Shown here in pieces: positions 12,636 through 38,845 of a stretch of DNA of 38,917 bases; positions within the stretch are counted from its first letter, which is position 1, and the number at the start of each line of letters is the position of its first letter. The notes under the pieces are model-generated. The model did not search any database and had not been told where the DNA came from. It saw nothing but the letters and a program-made list of their open reading frames with translations. A program made the position numbers and the translations under genes. This DNA is from Clostridiales bacterium. GTDB lineage: Bacteria; Bacillota; Clostridia; Peptostreptococcales; Anaerovoracaceae. Where the stretch lies: contig JALFNS010000009.1 in the NCBI GenBank assembly GCA_022773945.1, forward strand, positions 1 to 38,917. Direction: 5' to 3'.

Positions 12636-12672
12636 ATTTGTGTCAAATTATGTTTACACCCGTGAGGTTTTT

Positions 12673-14043
12673 ATGAAAGTAGCAATTGTAGGAGCCGGCA
12701 AGCTGGGAATGAAGGTGGCGGAAGCTCTTCTGGGCGGAGACCACTCTGTAACAATAATCGATACCAACGAAGCCTGGACCGAGAAAATAAATTCAATACT
12801 GGATGTCATGACGGTAACTGCCAACGCCAAGGAAATCAAAGTCCTTAAGCAGATTGACATTTCTTCCTATGACTTCCTGGTGGCAACCACAGGTGACGAC
12901 GAGGTCAACATCGTCGTATCCGCCTTTGCGAAAAAACTCGGCTGCAGCAAGGTAATCGCCCGTGTGAGAGATCCTGAACACATGCAGCAGATAGATTTCA
13001 TCAAGGACCTTATGGGTATAGACTACATTGTCAATCCCGATCTGGGTATCACGGTGGAGATATATAAATATCTGGCGGAGAAATACACTCTAAGCAACGG
13101 CATATTCAGCAGCGGACTGGCGTCGCTTCTGGAGTTCTACGTTACCAAGCTGCCGGAGATTATCGGCATGTCCATGAGAGACATTTCTTCTCTTATGCCG
13201 AACATGCTGGTTATTGCAATATCACGTTCCGGCAAGGTTATAATTCCTCACGGCGACACATGTATCGAAGAGGACGACATCATATATGTAATCGGCGAGA
13301 AGGAGCCTATTCTCAAGCTTGCCGAGAAAGTACACGAAAAGGGCAAATACACTGACCTTCAGAAGGTTATGATTATAGGCGGCGGCAAGACCGGTTTCTA
13401 TCTGGCCCGCATGCTGGCCGAGTTCGGTGCGGCTGTCAAGATTATCGAGAAGAGCAAAGACCGCTGTCACTACCTTTCGACGCATCTGGATGATGTTATG
13501 ATTCTTCACGGAGATGCCACAGACCTCAGCCTCCTCGAGGAGGAGAACCTTGACGGGATGGATGCAGTTGTCACCGCCACAGGCTTTGACGAGGACAACC
13601 TGTTGCTGGCGCTCACGGCCAAGCAGCACAAGGTTGAGGATGTAATAGCCAAGGTGAGCAAAACCAGCTACGTGGAGATTATATCCGCCATGGGTATAGA
13701 TATGGCTCTGAATCCTCTGGATATAACCACCAACGATATAATCCGCTACGTTCAGAGTTCCAGAACTGTGGTATCGTCCCAGCTCATTCAGGGACAGGCG
13801 GAGATTGTGGAGGTTATAGCCACATCCCACATGAAGATAATTGACGAGCCTCTTAAGAATCTGAATCTGCCGGATACCTTCCTGGTGGCCGCCATTCACA
13901 GGGGCAATAAACTCATAATACCTAACGGAGATACGATAATAAGAGAAGACGACAGGGTAATAATCATAAGTCTCATAAGCGATCTTAAGGTTACCGAGAA
14001 GCTTCTCAAAGATAACGGAAGGTTCTCCTTCCTGAGAAAATAG
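12673..14043 (+). CDS. trkA: Trk K+ transport NAD-binding protein TrkA
   Basis: A 456-residue cytoplasmic regulator of K+ uptake with two RCK halves. The first Rossmann site is VGAGKLG (6-12). The second is IIGGGKTG, near residues 234-241. Each half is followed by a TrkA-C domain ending in the pattern IPHGDTCIEEDD or IPNGDTIIREDD. The start is the ATG at 12673 with GTGAGG 5 bp upstream; the frame extends 11 codons further without a signal. trkH follows after one base. Confidence 0.96.
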   Translation: MKVAIVGAGKLGMKVAEALLGGDHSVTIIDTNEAWTEKINSILDVMTVTANAKEIKVLKQIDISSYDFLVATTGDDEVNIVVSAFAKKLGCSKVIARVRDPEHMQQIDFIKDLMGIDYIVNPDLGITVEIYKYLAEKYTLSNGIFSSGLASLLEFYVTKLPEIIGMSMRDISSLMPNMLVIAISRSGKVIIPHGDTCIEEDDIIYVIGEKEPILKLAEKVHEKGKYTDLQKVMIIGGGKTGFYLARMLAEFGAAVKIIEKSKDRCHYLSTHLDDVMILHGDATDLSLLEEENLDGMDAVVTATGFDEDNLLLALTAKQHKVEDVIAKVSKTSYVEIISAMGIDMALNPLDITTNDIIRYVQSSRTVVSSQLIQGQAEIVEVIATSHMKIIDEPLKNLNLPDTFLVAAIHRGNKLIIPNGDTIIREDDRVIIISLISDLKVTEKLLKDNGRFSFLRK

Positions 14044-14044
14044 C

Positions 14045-15508
14045 ATGAATTTGAATTTTGGCTCAATATTGCGAATAGTAGGCATCGTGATGGTTATAAT
14101 CAGCGCGTCCATGCTGCCTTCTCTTTGTGTTTCACTCATATACGGAGAATACGATGTGGCTGTGGACTTTGCGATTACCGTCGCTGTGGTAGGCTGTCTG
14201 GGCGCGTGCCTCGCCAGACTGACGAAGTACAGCCTTCAGGATCTCAAGGTGAGAGACGGTTTTTTTATTGTAACCGTCTACTGGTTTATAGCTGCGATAA
14301 TCGGAGCCGTTCCTTTTTATATATCCGGTGCTATTCCTGCACCTGTTGACGCCTTCTTCGAGTCCTGCTCCGGGTTCTCGACCACAGGCGCCTCCATTCT
14401 GACGGACATCGAAAGTCTGCCTCGCGGCATACTGTTCTGGCGTTCCTTCACTCACTGGATAGGCGGTATCGGTATACTGCTCTTCGCCATTGCCGTCATG
14501 CCTTCTCTGGGAATAAGCGGGCAGAACGTTGTTGTATCCGAAACTCCGGGCCCTATGCTGGATAAGATTTCTCCCAAAATGACGGATACAGCCAAGACGC
14601 TTCTTGTCATATACTCAATTCTTACTGTCACGGAGACGATTATGCTCCTTTTTGGAGGCATGAATCTGTATGACGCTCTGGTTCACACCTTCGGAACCGT
14701 TGGAACCGGTGGATTCTCAACCTACAACACAAGCATCGGTCACTTCGACAGCACGTATATACGTATTGTAATCACTGTCTTCATGGTGCTCTGCGGGATG
14801 AACTTCAACCTCTTCTTCATAGCTATGAAGAAAGGTCCCGCCACATTCTTCAGGGACACGGAATTCAAATGCTATCTGCTGATTCTGGCTATAGCATCTT
14901 CTTTCATATTCCTCGTTCTGCTGTTCACCGGCGAAGGGGAAAGTGCCGGTCAGGTGGCAACGGACGCCGTCTTCCAGACCGCCTCTATCCTCACCACTAC
15001 CGGATACGCCACCTGCGACTACGAAACCTGGCCTCAGGTATGCCAGATTATGATTCTCCTGCTCATGTTCATTGGAGGAAGTTCATCCTCAACAGCGGGA
15101 GGTATCAAGGTTATCCGTATAGTTGTGGTCCTCAAGCTTGTTGCCAGAGGATTCTACACGAGACTGCATCCGAATGTGTTCAGGACGCCAAAGATTAACG
15201 GCAAAACCATACCTGGAGATTCAGTATCTCTCATAGCAAGCCACATATTCCTGTACATATTCCTGCTGTTTATAGGGACCTTCCTCATATCATTCGAAAA
15301 CGTGGATATGACCACATGCCTGACCTCTGTCATGACCTGCTTGGGAAATATAGGTCCCGGATTTGTGGACATAGGCCCTTCGGGCAACTTCGCTTTCATG
15401 ACAGGATTCTCCAAGATGGTTCTCTCCGTGTCGATGATTGCGGGCAGACTTGAACTCTATTCACTGTTTATTTTCCTGACGCCTCAGTTCTGGCATCCGG
15501 ACAGATAA
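14045..15508 (+). CDS. trkH: Trk K+ transporter membrane subunit TrkH (copy 1)
   Basis: A 487-residue TrkH/KtrB-type channel subunit with four membrane-pore-membrane units. The four filter loops are close to the family: STTGAS (112-117), GTGGFS (220-225), TTTGYA (317-322) and GNIGPG (434-439). GIKVIRIV near 353-360 carries the buried basic residue near the pore. Start ATG at 14045 lies one base behind the trkA stop, indicating coupled translation with its TrkA partner. Confidence 0.95.
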   Translation: MNLNFGSILRIVGIVMVIISASMLPSLCVSLIYGEYDVAVDFAITVAVVGCLGACLARLTKYSLQDLKVRDGFFIVTVYWFIAAIIGAVPFYISGAIPAPVDAFFESCSGFSTTGASILTDIESLPRGILFWRSFTHWIGGIGILLFAIAVMPSLGISGQNVVVSETPGPMLDKISPKMTDTAKTLLVIYSILTVTETIMLLFGGMNLYDALVHTFGTVGTGGFSTYNTSIGHFDSTYIRIVITVFMVLCGMNFNLFFIAMKKGPATFFRDTEFKCYLLILAIASSFIFLVLLFTGEGESAGQVATDAVFQTASILTTTGYATCDYETWPQVCQIMILLLMFIGGSSSSTAGGIKVIRIVVVLKLVARGFYTRLHPNVFRTPKINGKTIPGDSVSLIASHIFLYIFLLFIGTFLISFENVDMTTCLTSVMTCLGNIGPGFVDIGPSGNFAFMTGFSKMVLSVSMIAGRLELYSLFIFLTPQFWHPDR

Positions 15509-15525
15509 AAACATATTATTGAATT

Positions 15526-16995
15526 ATGGTAAATGTAAACATCAACTACAAAGCCATGGTCAGAATCCTTGGCATTATAATTCTCATCACAGGACTGGCT
15601 ATGGCCATACCCTGGATTTTCGCTGAGGTAACGGGTGACACCGCCAGCCTCAAAGGCTTCAGGATAGGAGTACCGGTCTCTGTTGTTCTGGGAGGCCTTC
15701 TGTCTTTTTTTCTTAAATCCGACAGGGCCAAATTCAGAGTCAGAGAGGGTTATATAGTCGTTGCATCCTGCTGGGCCGTGGCAATTCTCGCAGGAACTCT
15801 GCCATATTATTTCAGCAGCTTCACGGACAGCTTCATAGATGCGCTCTTCGAGTCAACTTCCGGGTTCACCACCACAGGCTGCTCTGCAGTTGCCGGTGAT
15901 CCTCTCTCGGATTCACTTCTGCTCTGGAAGGCCATAACAAACTGGATGGGAGGCATGGGTATCCTGGTACTTGCCATATCTATCCTTCCCGCTCTGGGTG
16001 TCAACGGTCAGTTCATCGTCAGAGCGGAAGCGCCGGGCCCTGCATTCCAGAAGACTACCGTGCGCATGAGCGACTCAGCCAAGGTGCTCTACGTGACATA
16101 TTTTGCTTTCACACTTATCGAGTTTATTCTTCTGATGCTGTCAGGCAAAATGCCTGCTTTCGATGCCCTCATAGCCACGATGGGCAGCATAAGCACAGGA
16201 GGGCTTACCGTTCACCCTGAGGGAATCGCGTTCTATGACAGCATCTTCGTTGAAGTTGTCATCTCTGCCTTCTGTATTCTCTCGTCGGTCAACTTCGTTC
16301 TCTATCACTATCTGGTAACAGGCAAAGGTTCATACCTTCTCAAGGACATTGAGCTTCGCGCATACCTGATTATAATTCTGGCGGCTATTCTCATATGCAC
16401 CGCCGGCCTTGTTTTCGTAAACGGTGACGAACCGGGCACAGCCCTTCGCGATGCCGGATTCCAGGTGGTAAGCATGGCTACAACCGCCGGCTACACGAGA
16501 TCGCCTTATGTTGTCTGGCCTGTCGTGTGCCAGATTACTCTTATCGTGCTCATGTTTATAGGCGGCTGTTCCTCCTCAACTGCAGGTTCAATCAAGGTTG
16601 TCCGCGTTCTTGTTATGCTCAAGCTCATTTTCAGAGGCGGAACCAAGAGAGTCCACCCGCGTTCTGTAGTGGCCGTCAAGCTGGGAAGGAATGCCGTATC
16701 GGCACCTGTTGTCTCGGCAATAACAGCCTTCATTCTCACATACATGCTGGTACTGCTCGTATCAGTATTCATACTATCCTTCCAGGGATTCTCTCTGGAT
16801 ACGACATTGACCGCAGCCCTGGCCATGCTCTCCAACACGGGAGCCGCCTTCGGAGAGGCCGCAGCATCCGGCAACTTCTCCATGTTCCACCCTGTCCTCA
16901 AGCTCTACCTGAGCGGCCTGATGATCATGGGCAGACTGGAGCTCTTCACGATCATGATACTCTTCAGCAGAACCTTCTGGGGAAAGAATCATTAA
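15526..16995 (+). CDS. trkH: Trk K+ transporter membrane subunit TrkH (copy 2)
   Basis: A 489-residue paralogue of the preceding gene, 17 bp downstream. The filter loops differ: TTTGCS (115-120), STGGLT (223-228), TTAGYT (319-324) and SNTGAA (436-441). The fourth loop lacks the usual GPG. The basic pore residue region SIKVVRV is kept. No Shine-Dalgarno is obvious before the ATG at 15526, so translation may depend on copy 1. It may differ in ion selectivity, affinity or TrkA pairing; that is inference. Confidence 0.94.
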   Translation: MVNVNINYKAMVRILGIIILITGLAMAIPWIFAEVTGDTASLKGFRIGVPVSVVLGGLLSFFLKSDRAKFRVREGYIVVASCWAVAILAGTLPYYFSSFTDSFIDALFESTSGFTTTGCSAVAGDPLSDSLLLWKAITNWMGGMGILVLAISILPALGVNGQFIVRAEAPGPAFQKTTVRMSDSAKVLYVTYFAFTLIEFILLMLSGKMPAFDALIATMGSISTGGLTVHPEGIAFYDSIFVEVVISAFCILSSVNFVLYHYLVTGKGSYLLKDIELRAYLIIILAAILICTAGLVFVNGDEPGTALRDAGFQVVSMATTAGYTRSPYVVWPVVCQITLIVLMFIGGCSSSTAGSIKVVRVLVMLKLIFRGGTKRVHPRSVVAVKLGRNAVSAPVVSAITAFILTYMLVLLVSVFILSFQGFSLDTTLTAALAMLSNTGAAFGEAAASGNFSMFHPVLKLYLSGLMIMGRLELFTIMILFSRTFWGKNH

Positions 16996-33738: not shown

Positions 33739-34473
33739 TCAGCGACAGTTGAAACATTTACCGCACACTTCCGGGTTGGGAGTGTGCGAATTTATTTTCT
33801 CACAGTAATCCTGACACTTCTTCCTGTCTATTCCGTCACGGTCTATAGCTCCGGCCGGACATGCGGCAATAAGCTCATCACTGCACTCGACGCCTTCCGT
33901 TCCCTTGAACCGGCAGTCTTTCATCATCTCATTAAACGCGGCCTCCAGCTCCTCGGAAGTCATTTCCGGAGGCTTCTCTCCGTAGAGTCCGTCGGTTATT
34001 ATCGTCCCTGCAATACCCCGGTCTGTTTCTCCCGGCACGTGAAAAGAGCCTGCAGGGCCGAAACTTCCCATGCCGGCCATCCAGGCCGTATACTTGCTGC
34101 ACCATTCCTCTCTGCACTGTTCGCAATCCCAGTCGATAGGAATACATGTGTTTGATGTGAGTCTTCCCAGCTTGTCCAGATATCTCCTTATGTTGCCGTT
34201 TATAGCCATGGTGAGTTTGACAGCATCGAAGAATGCGTTCTCACCCTCCTCGTAGGGCACATAATGAACTATGACCGTGTATCCGGGTCTGTATATGTTC
34301 TTGGGATGGTCGTTCACTCCTCTGGCGAAGAGTGTATCGTAGAGAGGATGATTCGCGCTGACGAATCCCACCCGTGGTTTACCGAAGGCGGTTTTCACGT
34401 CTTCTGCCTCACGGAATTCCGCTACTGTGTCTTCCACCGTTTTAAATATATCTGCTTTTACGTCTCTAGGCAT
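33739..34473 (-). CDS. 4Fe-4S protein related to epoxyqueuosine reductase
   Basis: A 244-residue protein with 12 cysteines. CIPIDWDCEQCREEWC (110-125) and the C-terminal group C187, C197, C205 (CPAGAI), C220, C224 and CGKCFNC (237-243) suggest two Fe-S clusters. GMGSFGPAGSF resembles the glycine-rich loop of QueG and reductive-dehalogenase-like enzymes. The reaction is not known. The ATG at 34473 follows AAGGAGAGG, which is buried in the inverted repeat at 34474-34529. It converges on the dehydrogenase gene with 11 bp between stops. Confidence 0.8.
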   Translation of the reverse strand: MPRDVKADIFKTVEDTVAEFREAEDVKTAFGKPRVGFVSANHPLYDTLFARGVNDHPKNIYRPGYTVIVHYVPYEEGENAFFDAVKLTMAINGNIRRYLDKLGRLTSNTCIPIDWDCEQCREEWCSKYTAWMAGMGSFGPAGSFHVPGETDRGIAGTIITDGLYGEKPPEMTSEELEAAFNEMMKDCRFKGTEGVECSDELIAACPAGAIDRDGIDRKKCQDYCEKINSHTPNPEVCGKCFNCR

Positions 34474-34529
34474 AAATTCCTCTCCTTTCGTGCATTTTAT
34501 TATATTATAGCACGAAAGCAGAGGAATTT
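34474..34529. promoter_or_regulatory. Long inverted repeat covering a ribosome binding site
   Basis: The arms 34474-34493 and 34510-34529 pair at 19 of 20 positions; the 16-bp loop is all A/T except none. On the minus strand the 3' arm contains the AAGGAGAGG of the 4Fe-4S gene. A full read-through mRNA would fold and hide that site. Confidence 0.85.
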
Positions 34530-34532
34530 TCA
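34504..34532 (-). promoter_or_regulatory. Promoter with its -10 in the repeat loop
   Basis: On the minus strand -10 TATAAT (34504-34509) lies in the loop of the inverted repeat, with a poor -35 TGAAAA (34527-34532) 17 bp upstream. A transcript from here would start near 34497 and lack the upstream arm, leaving the ribosome binding site free. Confidence 0.5.
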
Positions 34533-34540
34533 TTTAACTG

Positions 34541-34966
34541 TTATTTTTTGTCTTTTTCGTAGAGTTTAAGGAAGAAATCGTAGAGTTCGGGATTCTTCTT
34601 TTTTAGAGGAATAGGTCTCAGATTCGCATCGGTGAATCCGTGACGGCTGCGCCCCTTAACGTGAACCTCATCCGTCTCCGCGTTCCTGATGACATATTCC
34701 ATCTCGAAGGATGCCGGTCCCAGCTTGTCGATTCTGCAGTCGATGGCAATGAGTTCATCATAGACCGAAGGCGTCATGAACTTGGCCTCCACTCCCAGCA
34801 CGGGAATCTGAAAATCTCCCTTCTCCATGTCCGAGTAGGCCAGACCTTCGCTTCTGAGGTACTCCGTTCTGGCGGTCTCATAAAACCTTATGTAGTTGGC
34901 ATGATGTGTCACCTGCATCTTGTCAGTGTCAAAGTACTGAACTCTCTGTTTATGTGTATATGCCAT
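34541..34966 (-). CDS. YbgC/FadM-like acyl-CoA thioesterase
   Basis: A 141-residue single hotdog domain of the 4-hydroxybenzoyl-CoA thioesterase type. RVQYFDTDKMQVTHHANYIRFYE contains the catalytic Asp. The enzyme should hydrolyse an acyl- or aroyl-CoA. Its AGGAGAG binding site overlaps the stop codon of the upstream ligase, 12 bp away, so they are coupled and may act on the same CoA ester. Confidence 0.9.
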   Translation of the reverse strand: MAYTHKQRVQYFDTDKMQVTHHANYIRFYETARTEYLRSEGLAYSDMEKGDFQIPVLGVEAKFMTPSVYDELIAIDCRIDKLGPASFEMEYVIRNAETDEVHVKGRSRHGFTDANLRPIPLKKKNPELYDFFLKLYEKDKK

Positions 34967-34978
34967 ATTCTCACTCTC

Positions 34979-36826
34979 CTATTTCATAGCCAGCTTGAGC
35001 TGTCCCATTTCCTGATCGGTAAGAGCCATCTCCTTAACGATGTAGTGCTGGAGTTTACCCGTCGGAGTCATAGGAAGCTCCTTAACGAATCTGTAGAAGC
35101 GCGGACGCTTGTACGTTGACAGCATATCAGAACTGTTGCAGAAGTCAACCAGTTCTCCTACAGTCAGGCTTTCATCCTCAGGCACTATATAAGCCACAAC
35201 CGCTTCTCCTCTCACCGTGTCAGGAATTCCCGTAACCGCTGACTGGGCAACCTTAGGATGAGTGTTGAGTGTCTCTTCTATAATAGGCGGATAGATATTC
35301 TCTCCTCCGGAGATGATCATATCGTCTCTTCTTCCCGCTATCGTTATGAACTGGTTCTTGTCCCATGTAGCCAGGTCTCCCGTGTACATCCAGCCTTTGT
35401 AGAATTTGTTCTTCTCCTCTTCCGGATTCTTGAAGTAGCAGTAGGATGCCTTCGGCGAACGGATAATAACCTCTCCCACTTCGCTCTCGTTCATCTCTGC
35501 CAGCTCGTCCGGCTCAGCTCTGCGGTCCTCGAAGGTCTTAACCACGCGAACCTCATCGTCCGTGCACGCTCTGCCCGCAGTTCCCGACATTTCAGGAAGG
35601 TCGAATGGTCTGAGGAATGAATTCCAGAAGGTCTCCGTTGTTCCGTATCCGTTGAAGATGTTAGGTGTGAGCACTTCCTGTACTGTGATGCAGTCAGCTC
35701 TCTCGAAAGGTGCTCCCATAGTGACAACGCCCTTCAGGCTCGAAAGATCCGCTTCATAGCGCTGCTGCTCTCTCACAAGCATCTTCATTATTGACGGCAC
35801 TCCGATGAGGAATGTGACCTTGTACTGCTCAACGTACTTGAGAGCCAGCTTCGGCATGAACTTTCTCATTATTACAACGGTTCCGCCTGCATAGAATGTA
35901 GGTGCCGGTCCGCCCGAGTGAATTCCGCCTCTGTGGAACCAAGGCGTGGTGTTCATTGTTGAATCTGTAGAGTTCATAGGGAAGTGCATGAGCACGTCGT
36001 GGCATGTCATTACCTCGTTCACGTTGTTGAGAGGAACTCCCTTAGGCTTGCCTGTAGTTCCCGAAGTGTAGAGTCTCATGCATTCATCGTACATATGCGG
36101 TACGAAATCCGTAACCGGCTCCTCCTCGGAGCATCCGGATACAAAGTCTTCATATCTGATGTGTCCCGGCGGAAGTTCACCGTCTCCGACCATAACGATT
36201 GTCTGAGGCTTGAACTCCGACTCGGCAACCGCCTTCTCGGCAGTCGTCTTCAGTGACGCGTCATATATATACACCTTAGGTCTGCTCATCTCGAAGCATA
36301 CCGCCGTCTCTCCCGGCGAGAAATTAGGATTTGCCGGATTGTTAATAGCACCCAGCTTCTGAGGCGCCAGATAACTGAATATGTAGGCAGGGCTGTTAGG
36401 CATCTGGTATGTGATTACATCGTTCTCAACAACGCCCACCTTCTGGAGAGCTCTGGCCAGCTTGTTGACTTCTCCGTTAAGCTGGTCATATGTCCAGCTC
36501 TTCTCTTCGGCAGGATCCAGAACAGCCAGCTTGCTTCCGAATTTCCTTACCGTTCTCATGAAGCCTTCGATATATGTGAAATCTCTCTCGAAAACCTCTC
36601 TGAACATATCCTTCTCAGGCTCGTAGTTGAGAAGCTCGTCTATGGACACTCCCAGAGCCTTTGCAATCTTGAGGGCATAGCTCACGGTAGGGTCCGCTCC
36701 GCCGCTGCAATATTTTTTTATCATGTTATAAGTAATGCCGGTTTCATTGGCAAGTGCTGTCATGGTCATATTCTTCTCTTCGAGTCTGGCCTTGAGATTA
36801 GCACCAAAATCAGTCTGTACTTCCAT
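34979..36826 (-). CDS. XRE-type HTH fused to acyl-CoA ligase (copy 1)
   Basis: A 615-residue fusion. Residues 8-66 are a Cro/C1-type HTH (MTALANETGITYNMIKKYC, ... SIDELLNY). Residues 75-615 are a complete class I adenylate-forming CoA ligase: TSGTTGKPKG (254-263), GYGTTE (393-398), YTGD (481-484), GRRDDMIISGGENIYP (498-513) and the adenylation Lys K591 in PTGKLQ. It should activate a carboxylic acid to acyl-CoA and also bind DNA. Substrate unknown. The start at 36826 is fixed by AAGGAGG 6 bp upstream; an ATG ten codons earlier has no signal. Confidence 0.92.
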   Translation of the reverse strand: MEVQTDFGANLKARLEEKNMTMTALANETGITYNMIKKYCSGGADPTVSYALKIAKALGVSIDELLNYEPEKDMFREVFERDFTYIEGFMRTVRKFGSKLAVLDPAEEKSWTYDQLNGEVNKLARALQKVGVVENDVITYQMPNSPAYIFSYLAPQKLGAINNPANPNFSPGETAVCFEMSRPKVYIYDASLKTTAEKAVAESEFKPQTIVMVGDGELPPGHIRYEDFVSGCSEEEPVTDFVPHMYDECMRLYTSGTTGKPKGVPLNNVNEVMTCHDVLMHFPMNSTDSTMNTTPWFHRGGIHSGGPAPTFYAGGTVVIMRKFMPKLALKYVEQYKVTFLIGVPSIMKMLVREQQRYEADLSSLKGVVTMGAPFERADCITVQEVLTPNIFNGYGTTETFWNSFLRPFDLPEMSGTAGRACTDDEVRVVKTFEDRRAEPDELAEMNESEVGEVIIRSPKASYCYFKNPEEEKNKFYKGWMYTGDLATWDKNQFITIAGRRDDMIISGGENIYPPIIEETLNTHPKVAQSAVTGIPDTVRGEAVVAYIVPEDESLTVGELVDFCNSSDMLSTYKRPRFYRFVKELPMTPTGKLQHYIVKEMALTDQEMGQLKLAMK

Positions 36827-36864
36827 AGATTCCTCCTTGTTTGAACTAAATTTCATCTATTTCT

Positions 36865-36893
36865 AGTATAAACCTTTATTATTTCGATTTCAA
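36865..36893 (-). promoter_or_regulatory. Promoter of the copy 1 ligase operon
   Basis: On the minus strand -35 TTGAAA (36888-36893), 17-bp spacer, -10 TATACT (36865-36870). Hexamers and spacing are identical to the copy 2 promoter. The word GAACTAAAT occurs on the plus strand at 36843-36851, just downstream of the start site. Confidence 0.75.
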
Positions 36894-36905
36894 GTAAAAT
36901 AATAT

Positions 36906-38753
36906 TCACTTCATCGCCAGCTTCAGAAGACCATCTTCCTGATCCGCCAGAGCCATTTTCTTAACCATGAAGTGCTGCAGCTTTCCTGTGGCAGTCATCG
37001 GCAGTTCCTCCACGAATCTGTAGTATCGCGGGCTCTTCTGCGCGGATATGACATCCGACTCCCCGCAGTAGGCGACAAGCTCTCCCACCGTCAGACTTTC
37101 ATTCTCCGGAACAATGTATGCAGCCACCGCCTCTCCTCTGACGGCATCGGGGATACCCACAACAGCCGAAGCCCTGACCTTCTCATGAGAATTCAGCACT
37201 TCCTCTATCACCGGCGGATATATGTTCTCTCCTCCCGATATAATCATGTCATCCTTCCTGCCGGCTATGGTTATATAGCCTTCTTCATCCCATGTGGCCA
37301 CATCGCCCGTGTACATCCATCCTCTGTAAAACTTCTTCTCGGCTTCCTCCCTGTTGTTCAGGTATTTATAAGAAGACTTCATCGACCGTATTATCACTTC
37401 TCCCTGCTCGGCTCCGTCACGTCTGACCATGTCATCGGGATTTCTTCTTCCATCTTCGTTCATGCGGACCACTCTGACTTCATCATCCACACAGGCTCTC
37501 CCTGCAGCTCCGGCCATCTGCGGCAGGTCAAAAGATCTCAGGAAAGTATTGCAGAAGGTCTCGGTAGTTCCGTACCCGTTGAGAAGATTCGGCGAAAGCT
37601 TTTCCTGAACCAGCACACAGTCAGCCTTCTCGAAAGGCGATCCCATGGTAACAAGTCCTCTCAGCCCGGAGAGATCCGCCTTGTAGTTTTCCTGTTCTCT
37701 CACAAGCATCTTCATTATTGACGGCACTCCTATCAGGAAGGTTACTCCGCACTGTTCAACATATTTAAGAGCCAGCTTCGGGAAGAACCTGCTCATTATC
37801 ACCACCGTTCCTCCTGCATAGAACGTCGGTGCAGGCCCGCCTATATGTATTCCTCCCCTGTGAAACCAGGGCGTTGTATTCATAGCGGTGTCCGTGGAAT
37901 TCATAGGGAAATGCATGAGAACATCATGGCATGTCATCACCTCGTTGACGTTGTTGAGCGGCACTCCCTTAGGCATCCCCGTGGTTCCCGACGTATAAAG
38001 CCGCATGCACTCATCATACATGTGCGGCCGGTAATCCGTCTCCGGCTCCGAAGGCGAACACCCTTCCACAAAATCCGCAAAGGCTATATGTCCTGTCGGC
38101 ACTTCTCCTTTTCCTGTCATTATTACCGTCTGAGGTTTGAACTCAGCTGCAGCAAGCGCCTTGACGGCATCCTCCTTCAGAGACGAGTCATAAACGAATA
38201 CCTTAGGTCTGCTCATATCCAGACATGATGCCGTCTCCACCGGCGAAAAAGCCGGGTTGGCCGGATTGTTCACTGCGCCCAGCTTCTGGGGCGCCAGATA
38301 GAAGAGTATGTATTCCAGGCAGTTCGGCATCTGGTAGGTAATTACATCACCCTTCCTGACCCCCGCTCTCTGCAGAGCCCTCGCCAGCCTGTTCGCCTCT
38401 CCGTCAAGCTCACCATAGGTCATGGATATGTCCCCGGCAGGATCTATGACAGCCGTCTTGTCTCTGAATTTTCTCACCGTTCTGCGGAAGCCCTCCACGA
38501 AGGTAAAATCCCTTTCAAAGATCTCGTGAAACATATGCTTCTCAGGCACATATCCCATAAGACTGTCCACCGACACTCCTAAAACACCGGCAATCTTAAC
38601 CGCATATCCTGTTGTCGGTTCCCCCTCGCCCCTACAGTACTTCTTAATCATGTTGTAGCTTATACCTGTACGCTCAGCAAGCGCGCTCATGGTTATATTG
38701 CATTCTGAAATAAATTTCTTCAAATTCTCGCTAAACGAACTATTATTGCCCAT
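36906..38753 (-). CDS. XRE-type HTH fused to acyl-CoA ligase (copy 2)
   Basis: A 615-residue paralogue aligning with copy 1 without visible gaps. The HTH block is MSALAERTGISYNMIKKYC and the ligase motifs TSGTTGMPKG, GYGTTE, YTGD, GRKDDMIISGGENIYP and ATGKLQ (K591) are intact. Differences cluster in the HTH, in the 185-240 region and around 430-450. The start at 38753 has AAGGGAG upstream. It ends 80 bp before copy 1. A recent tandem duplication is likely. Confidence 0.92.
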   Translation of the reverse strand: MGNNSSFSENLKKFISECNITMSALAERTGISYNMIKKYCRGEGEPTTGYAVKIAGVLGVSVDSLMGYVPEKHMFHEIFERDFTFVEGFRRTVRKFRDKTAVIDPAGDISMTYGELDGEANRLARALQRAGVRKGDVITYQMPNCLEYILFYLAPQKLGAVNNPANPAFSPVETASCLDMSRPKVFVYDSSLKEDAVKALAAAEFKPQTVIMTGKGEVPTGHIAFADFVEGCSPSEPETDYRPHMYDECMRLYTSGTTGMPKGVPLNNVNEVMTCHDVLMHFPMNSTDTAMNTTPWFHRGGIHIGGPAPTFYAGGTVVIMSRFFPKLALKYVEQCGVTFLIGVPSIMKMLVREQENYKADLSGLRGLVTMGSPFEKADCVLVQEKLSPNLLNGYGTTETFCNTFLRSFDLPQMAGAAGRACVDDEVRVVRMNEDGRRNPDDMVRRDGAEQGEVIIRSMKSSYKYLNNREEAEKKFYRGWMYTGDVATWDEEGYITIAGRKDDMIISGGENIYPPVIEEVLNSHEKVRASAVVGIPDAVRGEAVAAYIVPENESLTVGELVAYCGESDVISAQKSPRYYRFVEELPMTATGKLQHFMVKKMALADQEDGLLKLAMK

Positions 38754-38767
38754 AATATTCTCCCTTC

Positions 38768-38783
38768 ATGAATCATCATTCAT
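38768..38783. promoter_or_regulatory. Possible operator upstream of copy 2
   Basis: ATGAAT-CATC-ATTCAT is a perfect 6-bp inverted repeat in the leader, between the -10 box and the ribosome binding site. A repressor bound there would block transcription. Binding by the HTH ligases is only an idea. Confidence 0.3.
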
Positions 38784-38790
38784 TTAGTTC

Positions 38791-38819
38791 AGTATATTAT
38801 GGCCTTATTTCTCTTTCAA
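38791..38819 (-). promoter_or_regulatory. Promoter of the copy 2 ligase gene
   Basis: On the minus strand -35 TTGAAA (38814-38819), 17-bp spacer, -10 TATACT (38791-38796). GAACTAAAT follows the -10 box directly. Confidence 0.75.
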
Positions 38820-38845
38820 GAACATCTTATTTCAATTTGGTGCGC

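Follow-up and report, generated by a model that had tools for sequence, protein, structure and literature searches.

Tandem clostridial acyl-CoA ligases with an N-terminal helix-turn-helix domain as probable BirA-like trigger enzymes

The group II biotin protein ligase BirA carries an N-terminal helix-turn-helix (HTH) domain, makes an acyl-adenylate, and represses the biotin genes; biotin protein ligases of group I, which lack the HTH, also exist (PMC4016012). The trigger enzyme PutA is described as an enzyme and a transcriptional repressor in one chain (PMC6978683). Here we analyze two tandem genes, designated A and B, on a 38,917-nucleotide stretch of DNA from a Clostridiales bacterium (assembly GCA_022773945.1, contig JALFNS010000009.1), the whole of which is referred to as the window. 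Each gene encodes a complete acyl-CoA ligase preceded by an XRE/Cro-type HTH domain. The ligase fold is very common among enzymes. An initial annotation, made from the sequence alone, had read the pair as trigger enzymes in which the state of the ligase controls DNA binding, an interpretation that the present comparison partly supports. We think it probable that A and B are both active acyl-CoA ligases and ligand-set autoregulators of their own ligase-thioesterase operon, that is, trigger enzymes working in the manner of BirA. No HTH-acyl-CoA ligase fusion was found among the matches listed in the open-access literature, subscription journals being largely outside this scope, and relative to those matches we regard the fusion as an addition to the known class of trigger enzymes. 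To our knowledge, BirA is the only adenylate-forming ligase known to read its own intermediate to set transcription. If the reading is correct, the fusion would be the second adenylate-forming ligase to couple its own intermediate to transcription and would constitute a ready-made carboxylic-acid sensor.

The gene pair and its domains are as follows (aa, amino acids; ORF, open reading frame).

34979..36826, minus strand: gene A, HTH-acyl-CoA ligase, 615 aa if begun at the probable start codon (the coordinates include the stop codon)
34979-36856, minus strand: ORF of A as listed, 625 aa, open frame
36632..36796, minus strand: HTH_3 domain of A (Pfam; residues 21-75 of the 625-aa ORF), recognition helix ITYNMIKKYC
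35432..36556, minus strand: AMP-binding (adenylation) domain of A (Pfam; residues 101-475 of the 625-aa ORF)
35054..35281, minus strand: AMP-binding_C domain of A, carrying the invariant catalytic Lys (Pfam and alignment)
36906..38753, minus strand: gene B, HTH-acyl-CoA ligase, 615 aa, open frame
38541..38726, minus strand: HTH domain of B (Pfam HTH_26, residues 10-71; HTH_3, residues 17-64), recognition helix ISYNMIKKYC
37380..38489, minus strand: AMP-binding domain of B (Pfam; residues 89-458)
36981..37208, minus strand: AMP-binding_C domain of B (Pfam; residues 516-591)

The frame of A is open, as annotated, but its start had been placed ten codons too early. Because AAGGAGG lies just 5' of the Met11 codon of the listed ORF, the true start is probably at 36826, and residues 1 to 10 are probably leader. 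All three domains passed the Pfam cut-offs in A (HTH_3, E = 2.2e-13; AMP-binding, 1.3e-64; AMP-binding_C, 8.8e-19) and in B (2.2e-10, 2.5e-65, and 9.3e-17, respectively), with HTH_3 scores of 50.4 bits for A and 40.8 bits for B against a curated cut-off of 23. Apart from one weak antidote-family match in A, the Pfam families found were of the HTH and AMP-binding types only, and the biotin ligase catalytic domain was not among them. Both AMP-forming acyl-CoA ligase domains and the ligase motifs TSGTTGxPKG, GYGTTE, TGD, GRxDDMIISxGENIYP, and PTGK or ATGK are present in A and B, including the C-domain Lys (K591 in the 625-aa ORF numbering of A); these are the motifs that we take to have catalytic roles. 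The annotated union of an HTH with a complete ligase in both genes is therefore borne out. Judged by these matches, a DNA-binding-type domain and a motif-intact enzyme share one predicted chain, as in trigger enzymes; PutA likewise puts enzyme and regulator in one chain (PMC6978683). A and B are 71% identical across 615 aa. No other close copy was found in the genome of the window (1.83 Mb, 50 contigs), the remaining matches being partial and 23 to 38% identical.

The likeness to BirA lies in the N-terminal HTH on an acyl-adenylate-forming enzyme and in the occurrence of HTH-less forms in both families, whereas BirA has another catalytic domain, transfers biotin to proteins, and has its operators at the biotin genes (PMC4016012), unlike the predicted operators of the fusion, which lie mainly at the enzyme's own promoter. 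The resemblance is one of working, not of kinship. By profile and by PDB sequence (8weu, 3a9u, and 3r44), the closest enzyme family is the PRK06187/FadD/4CL-like acyl-CoA ligases. Against PRK06187 itself (NCBIfam NF004837), A and B scored 374.5 and 382.1 bits and thus fell short of the curated cut-off (476 bits), which places them outside that subfamily. In the best 60 of 200 solved relatives, the match begins no earlier than residue 71 in the 625-aa ORF, and none of these spans the HTH. MbcS, a 2-methylbutyryl-CoA synthetase that makes branched-chain primers for fatty-acid synthesis (PMC10026030), resembles the fusion as an acyl-CoA ligase apparently serving fatty-acid synthesis, and an MbcS-like gene precedes the fusion of Parasporobacterium paucivorans. 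MbcS differs in belonging to another subfamily. We know of no DNA-binding domain in MbcS.

The initial annotation had proposed counting the architecture across Clostridia. The fusion recurs in about two dozen of them, P. paucivorans DSM 15970 (locus L023) included, with no characterized example in the literature matches described above. Many of the hosts are, according to database record titles, Clostridia of the animal gut, where short and branched-chain acids are abundant. Twenty-four of the 26 related loci bear the same HTH (L034 is without it, and L032 is cut off at a contig end), so the fusion goes beyond chance; the list does favor fusions, because one of the six search patterns was drawn from the HTH. 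In whole-protein searches at E ≤ 1e-150, the order had relatives in 20 of 393 genomes and the phylum in 3 of 398; in a sample of the family searched earlier, at 1e-60, they were present in 3 of 148. When the L064 relative served as the query, the figures were 38 of 49 genomes for the genus and 14 of 291 for the class. All of these counts take in relatives lacking the HTH as well as the genome of the window itself. K591, the annotated adenylation Lys, is invariant across all 32 aligned relatives, which also keep the main ligase motifs. The junction is short: HTH-less relatives begin from a few to about 12 residues ahead of a common MFxEVFE-like stretch. An assembly or frame artifact was rejected, as the same junction was found again in many contigs.

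Inspection of the DNA 5' of 26 fused genes (L030 had no upstream sequence) revealed a 14-bp palindrome, TGAA-N6-TTCA, with 34 exact sites upstream of 22 of the genes, whereas 300 dinucleotide shuffles of the same regions averaged 0.33 sites and never exceeded 3. After removal of six close relatives, the palindrome was still found 5' of 16 of 20 fused genes. Its best form is TGAAYTATARTTCA. Exact sites were found at none of the 11 HTH-less homologues having upstream sequence (five of these possibly lie inside operons). The strict form, TGAAYTATRRTTCA, occurred in 10 of 15 fusion genomes, before the fused gene in 8 of these and elsewhere in G829 and G833. Within the same genus, from a scan that leaves out six members, it occurred in 9 of 15 genomes that hold all or part of the fusion versus 0 of 28 that do not (Fisher P = 9e-6, relatedness ignored); the 28 comprise 9 genomes without a relative at E ≤ 1e-150 and 19 with HTH-less ones only, and many are incomplete. 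These counts were 7 of 13 versus 2 of 30 before genomes G402 and G847 were reclassified, which was done after the hits had been seen. The strict matches in both are promoters of fused-gene pieces at a contig end or by a gap (G402 is the L035 contig, and G847 holds a remnant, L171). Altogether, 20 of 23 distinct strict sites stand before a fused gene or fragment; the other three lie before an HTH-less paralogue (G848), inside a reading frame (G829), and before another gene (G833).

Because the palindrome is conserved upstream of the fused genes and occurs neither before HTH-less homologues nor, in its strict form, in fusion-free genomes of the genus, the proposal that the HTH acts on its own gene's promoter is well supported by comparison. 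Sequence-specific binding of the HTH to the palindrome is predicted on the same grounds. Firmicutes fatty-acid synthesis has dedicated regulators, and some of the relatives are tied to that pathway; a separate, unlinked lipid regulator of the FabT or FapR type might own the palindrome, with the HTH serving as a structural or dimerization module. The zero counts at HTH-less homologues (five of the 11 possibly inside operons) and in the 28 fusion-free genomes, together with the share of strict sites held by the fused gene, make this alternative highly improbable.

In 10 of the 26 regions, the operator lies between the -35 and -10 elements and overlaps the last base of the assigned -35, the spacer being 17 in each (the pattern written for this form consists of an imperfect site, a -35-like TTGnnT, the overlapping site, and TATGAT or TAGGAT). 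Nine regions have successive sites at spacings of 21 to 22 and then 20 bp, with an imperfect middle site. A scan of nine genomes allowing one mismatch, in which forward and reverse matches (strict ones included) were set against a reversed-pattern control, gave 15 versus 0 in G829, 8 versus 3 in G845, 6 versus 2 in G410, 6 versus 0 in both G835 and G827, 5 versus 4 in G369, 4 versus 3 in G370, 3 versus 1 in G828, and 3 versus 5 in G396. Nineteen matches lay away from the fused promoter, 11 of them within reading frames. The other eight include three from P. paucivorans, of which two lie upstream of the MbcS-like ligase and the third upstream of a lactate/oxalate-type transporter, and one from G845, upstream of a second YbgC-type thioesterase. 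The HTH-less ligase paralogue of G848 has two TGAA-N6-TTCA sites, 22 bp apart, 155 to 190 nucleotides (nt) upstream (L076:455-490, G848:C124), a possible target in trans.

In the window, one such site lies before each gene, within the stretches 36840-36905 and 38754-38830 that had been suggested as probes for DNA binding.

36842..36855, minus strand: predicted operator of A, TGAAATTTAGTTCA, ranked second among the best 50 of 58 TGAAN6TTCA sites in the genome
38769..38782, minus strand: predicted operator of B, TGAATGATGATTCA, ranked first among the same sites
36865..36893, minus strand: promoter-like TTGAAA-N17-TATACT of A (consensus match only), within the 79 bp that separate B from the probable start of A
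38791..38819, minus strand: promoter-like TTGAAA-N17-TATACT of B (consensus match only)

The motif used for ranking was learned from 30 sites of other species, with the window and L011 sites excluded. At both genes, the palindrome begins 8 to 9 bp past the promoter-like element. Seven further sites of this genome were inspected from among the best 50, ranks 3 and 4 apart; six lie within reading frames and one before panB. The latter is a weaker site, TGAATGCTGATTCA, about 80 nt 5' of this pantothenate/CoA synthesis gene (L167:2635-2648, G000:C41:28634).

Several points weigh against the reading of A and B as autoregulatory trigger enzymes. The upstream regions come partly from related species. 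The nearest that four of the fused genes come to an exact site is one with a single mismatch (L023 and L031) or a weaker one (L028, 13.4 bits; L011-B, 11.6 bits), exact sites scoring 13.7 to 21.9 bits. Weak partial matches of 11 bits lie 5' of the HTH-less L060 and L061. Of the 11 HTH-less genes, five (L060, L061, L062, L065, and L066) sit after a ketoacyl synthase gene and the other six do not, and the zero at these five is weak evidence because within an operon their own promoter may be missing. The strict form is absent from the window's genome, and the sites of the window are diverged and placed past the -10. The sequence YNM[IV]KKYC, common to the 24 aligned members with this HTH, is invariant partly by selection, since it served as both a search pattern and a sorting rule. 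Finally, a ligand-independent autorepressor would leave identical traces. In such a protein, the HTH would keep the ligase level constant at its own promoter, and the state of the ligase would be irrelevant to DNA binding; the promoter footprint would be the same, and 20 of the 23 distinct strict sites belong to the promoter of the fused gene itself, as in a simple feedback loop. The possible trans targets, namely, the G848 paralogue and the P. paucivorans ligase, speak against it, as does the history of the fusion described next, and we consider it unlikely, although it is the most serious of the alternatives.

On a ligase-only tree (61 rows; quick IQ-TREE run with Shimodaira-Hasegawa-like approximate likelihood ratio test [SH-aLRT] support), the HTH type of A and B, labeled XRE-YNM, requires two changes, which we read as a single gain at the base of a clade (support, 100) and a single loss in four rows (support, 95). 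Among these four HTH-less rows, L060, L061, and L062 follow a ketoacyl synthase gene, and the DNA before L123 looks alike by eye; in L060 the gene order is fabK-fabD-fabG-fabF-fabZ-fabF2-ligase-thioesterase. A second type, XRE-SRI (L064), and a domain that we call D3 (seven rows; support, 100) are separate acquisitions on the same tree. On at least three occasions, then, related ligases acquired a different N-terminal domain (XRE-YNM, XRE-SRI, or D3) at approximately the same junction. This argues against a nonsensing autorepressor, because repeated N-terminal fusions are easier to explain if the ligase supplies information to its fusion partner (of the three domains, D3 has no known DNA-binding role). 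We tentatively suggest, with less confidence than the trigger-enzyme reading itself, that acyl-CoA ligases may repeatedly have been turned into one-component sensors. The adenylation and thioester-forming conformations of the ligase would set DNA affinity, an acid would be measured by its activation and fatty-acid supply tuned, and the duplication into A and B would have given sensors for two acids. If the trigger-enzyme reading is confirmed, the gain, loss, and replacement of the HTH on a single enzyme would also offer a natural experiment in the change from enzyme to regulator.

The L064 gene (L064:8784-10655, G312) joins a canonical XRE domain (SRSTISRIEAG) independently to a more distant (52%) ligase subfamily, and TGAA-N6-TTCA was not found in the 250 nt upstream. 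D3 is an N-terminal domain of about 75 aa (ETKKxRFxRI...NCSNxxNYEYT...) on related ligases (L125-L131) in seven genomes of the class, for example, L125 (G900:C13). It had no Pfam match below E = 0.01 and matched, weakly, a PHROG of unknown function. An inverted repeat resembling ACAATATTT-N3-AAATATTGT (AATATTGT type) lies 5' of three of the seven D3 genes; the upstream regions together contain eight half sites, whereas shuffles averaged 0.42 and never exceeded 3. Distant, standalone-looking D3 relatives occur on five plasmid records; of two whose surroundings were inspected, one has restriction genes nearby and the other adjoins a DNA methylase gene.

In the mechanism that we propose for A and B, the N-terminal XRE domain, as a dimer, would bind the palindrome in its own ligase-thioesterase promoter and, now and then, in that of a paralogous operon. 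Bound there, it would occlude RNA polymerase and repress the operon. Binding of acid and ATP, and formation of the acyl-adenylate or acyl-CoA in the ligase, would change the affinity for DNA, and the acid being processed would thereby set the operon level. That acid would feed or leave fatty-acid metabolism; short or branched-chain fatty-acid primers and longer fatty acids are the candidates. The comparison supports an own-promoter operator, a repressor-like position in one clade, intact catalytic residues, and a fatty-acid-synthesis context. Direct binding, dimerization, catalysis, and the substrate are predictions. The operator position suggests repression, and the architecture together with the BirA parallel suggests that the ligand state of the ligase may control DNA binding (PMC4016012). 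As to the sign of this control, induction by the acid is a guess suited to an enzyme that would consume it.

The gene following A encodes the presumptive partner enzyme.

34541..34966, minus strand: 4HBT (YbgC/FadM family) acyl-CoA thioesterase, 12 bp past A (Pfam/NCBIfam)

A YbgC/4HBT thioesterase lies directly downstream of 19 of 23 fused genes with enough sequence (L064 is counted; the upstream members of two tandem pairs and three short ends are not) and also 3' of 6 of the 12 rows classed as HTH-less (L032 included). None follows the P. paucivorans fusion; the MbcS-like ligase gene preceding that fusion (418 bits, below the NCBIfam cut-off of 850) bears two operator-like sites with one mismatch each. 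The fused genes of L016 and L036 are transcribed divergently from a cluster that contains a FabK-like gene and ketoacyl synthase genes. Beyond the thioesterase, neighbors vary between clades, and a conserved neighborhood defining the pathway was mostly rejected. The divergent clusters, the HTH-less form at the end of a fab operon, and the thioesterase partner would also suit a protein that chiefly senses an intermediate of fatty-acid synthesis (acyl-ACP or acyl-CoA), its ligase fold being an acyl-binding sensor with little turnover. The retention of K591 and the catalytic motifs in the 32 aligned sequences is unlike a decayed sensor domain, and we hold this alternative to be rather improbable. 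For the active ligase that we favor, the leading guess for the substrate is fatty-acid primer acids (short or branched chain), with long-chain acids as the alternative, because one-mismatch sites precede the MbcS-like ligase and MbcS supplies branched-chain primers (PMC10026030).

The initial annotation had also ascribed different HTHs and different substrate-side residues to A and B. The first part finds no support where DNA specificity is concerned: the recognition helices are near-identical, the sites are both TGAA-N6-TTCA, and the idea that the two proteins read different operators was rejected. The second part holds, in that B has I in place of S304 and C in place of W401, as does its orthologue L011-B; the other 30 aligned rows have S and W at these positions, except for A at 304 in the distant HTH-less L067. 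S304 aligns with Ser240 of the 4-coumarate-CoA ligase 3a9u, a residue that presumably lines the acyl pocket. From these substitutions, different substrates for A and B are plausible.

Adjoining the thioesterase gene, the window encodes a 264-aa protein with a cysteine-rich C-terminal part (33739-34533), for which there was no Pfam or NCBIfam match at E ≤ 0.1. Elsewhere in the window, positions 12640-16995 hold a TrkA-type gene and, after it, a tandem pair of genes for TrkH-type cation transporters.

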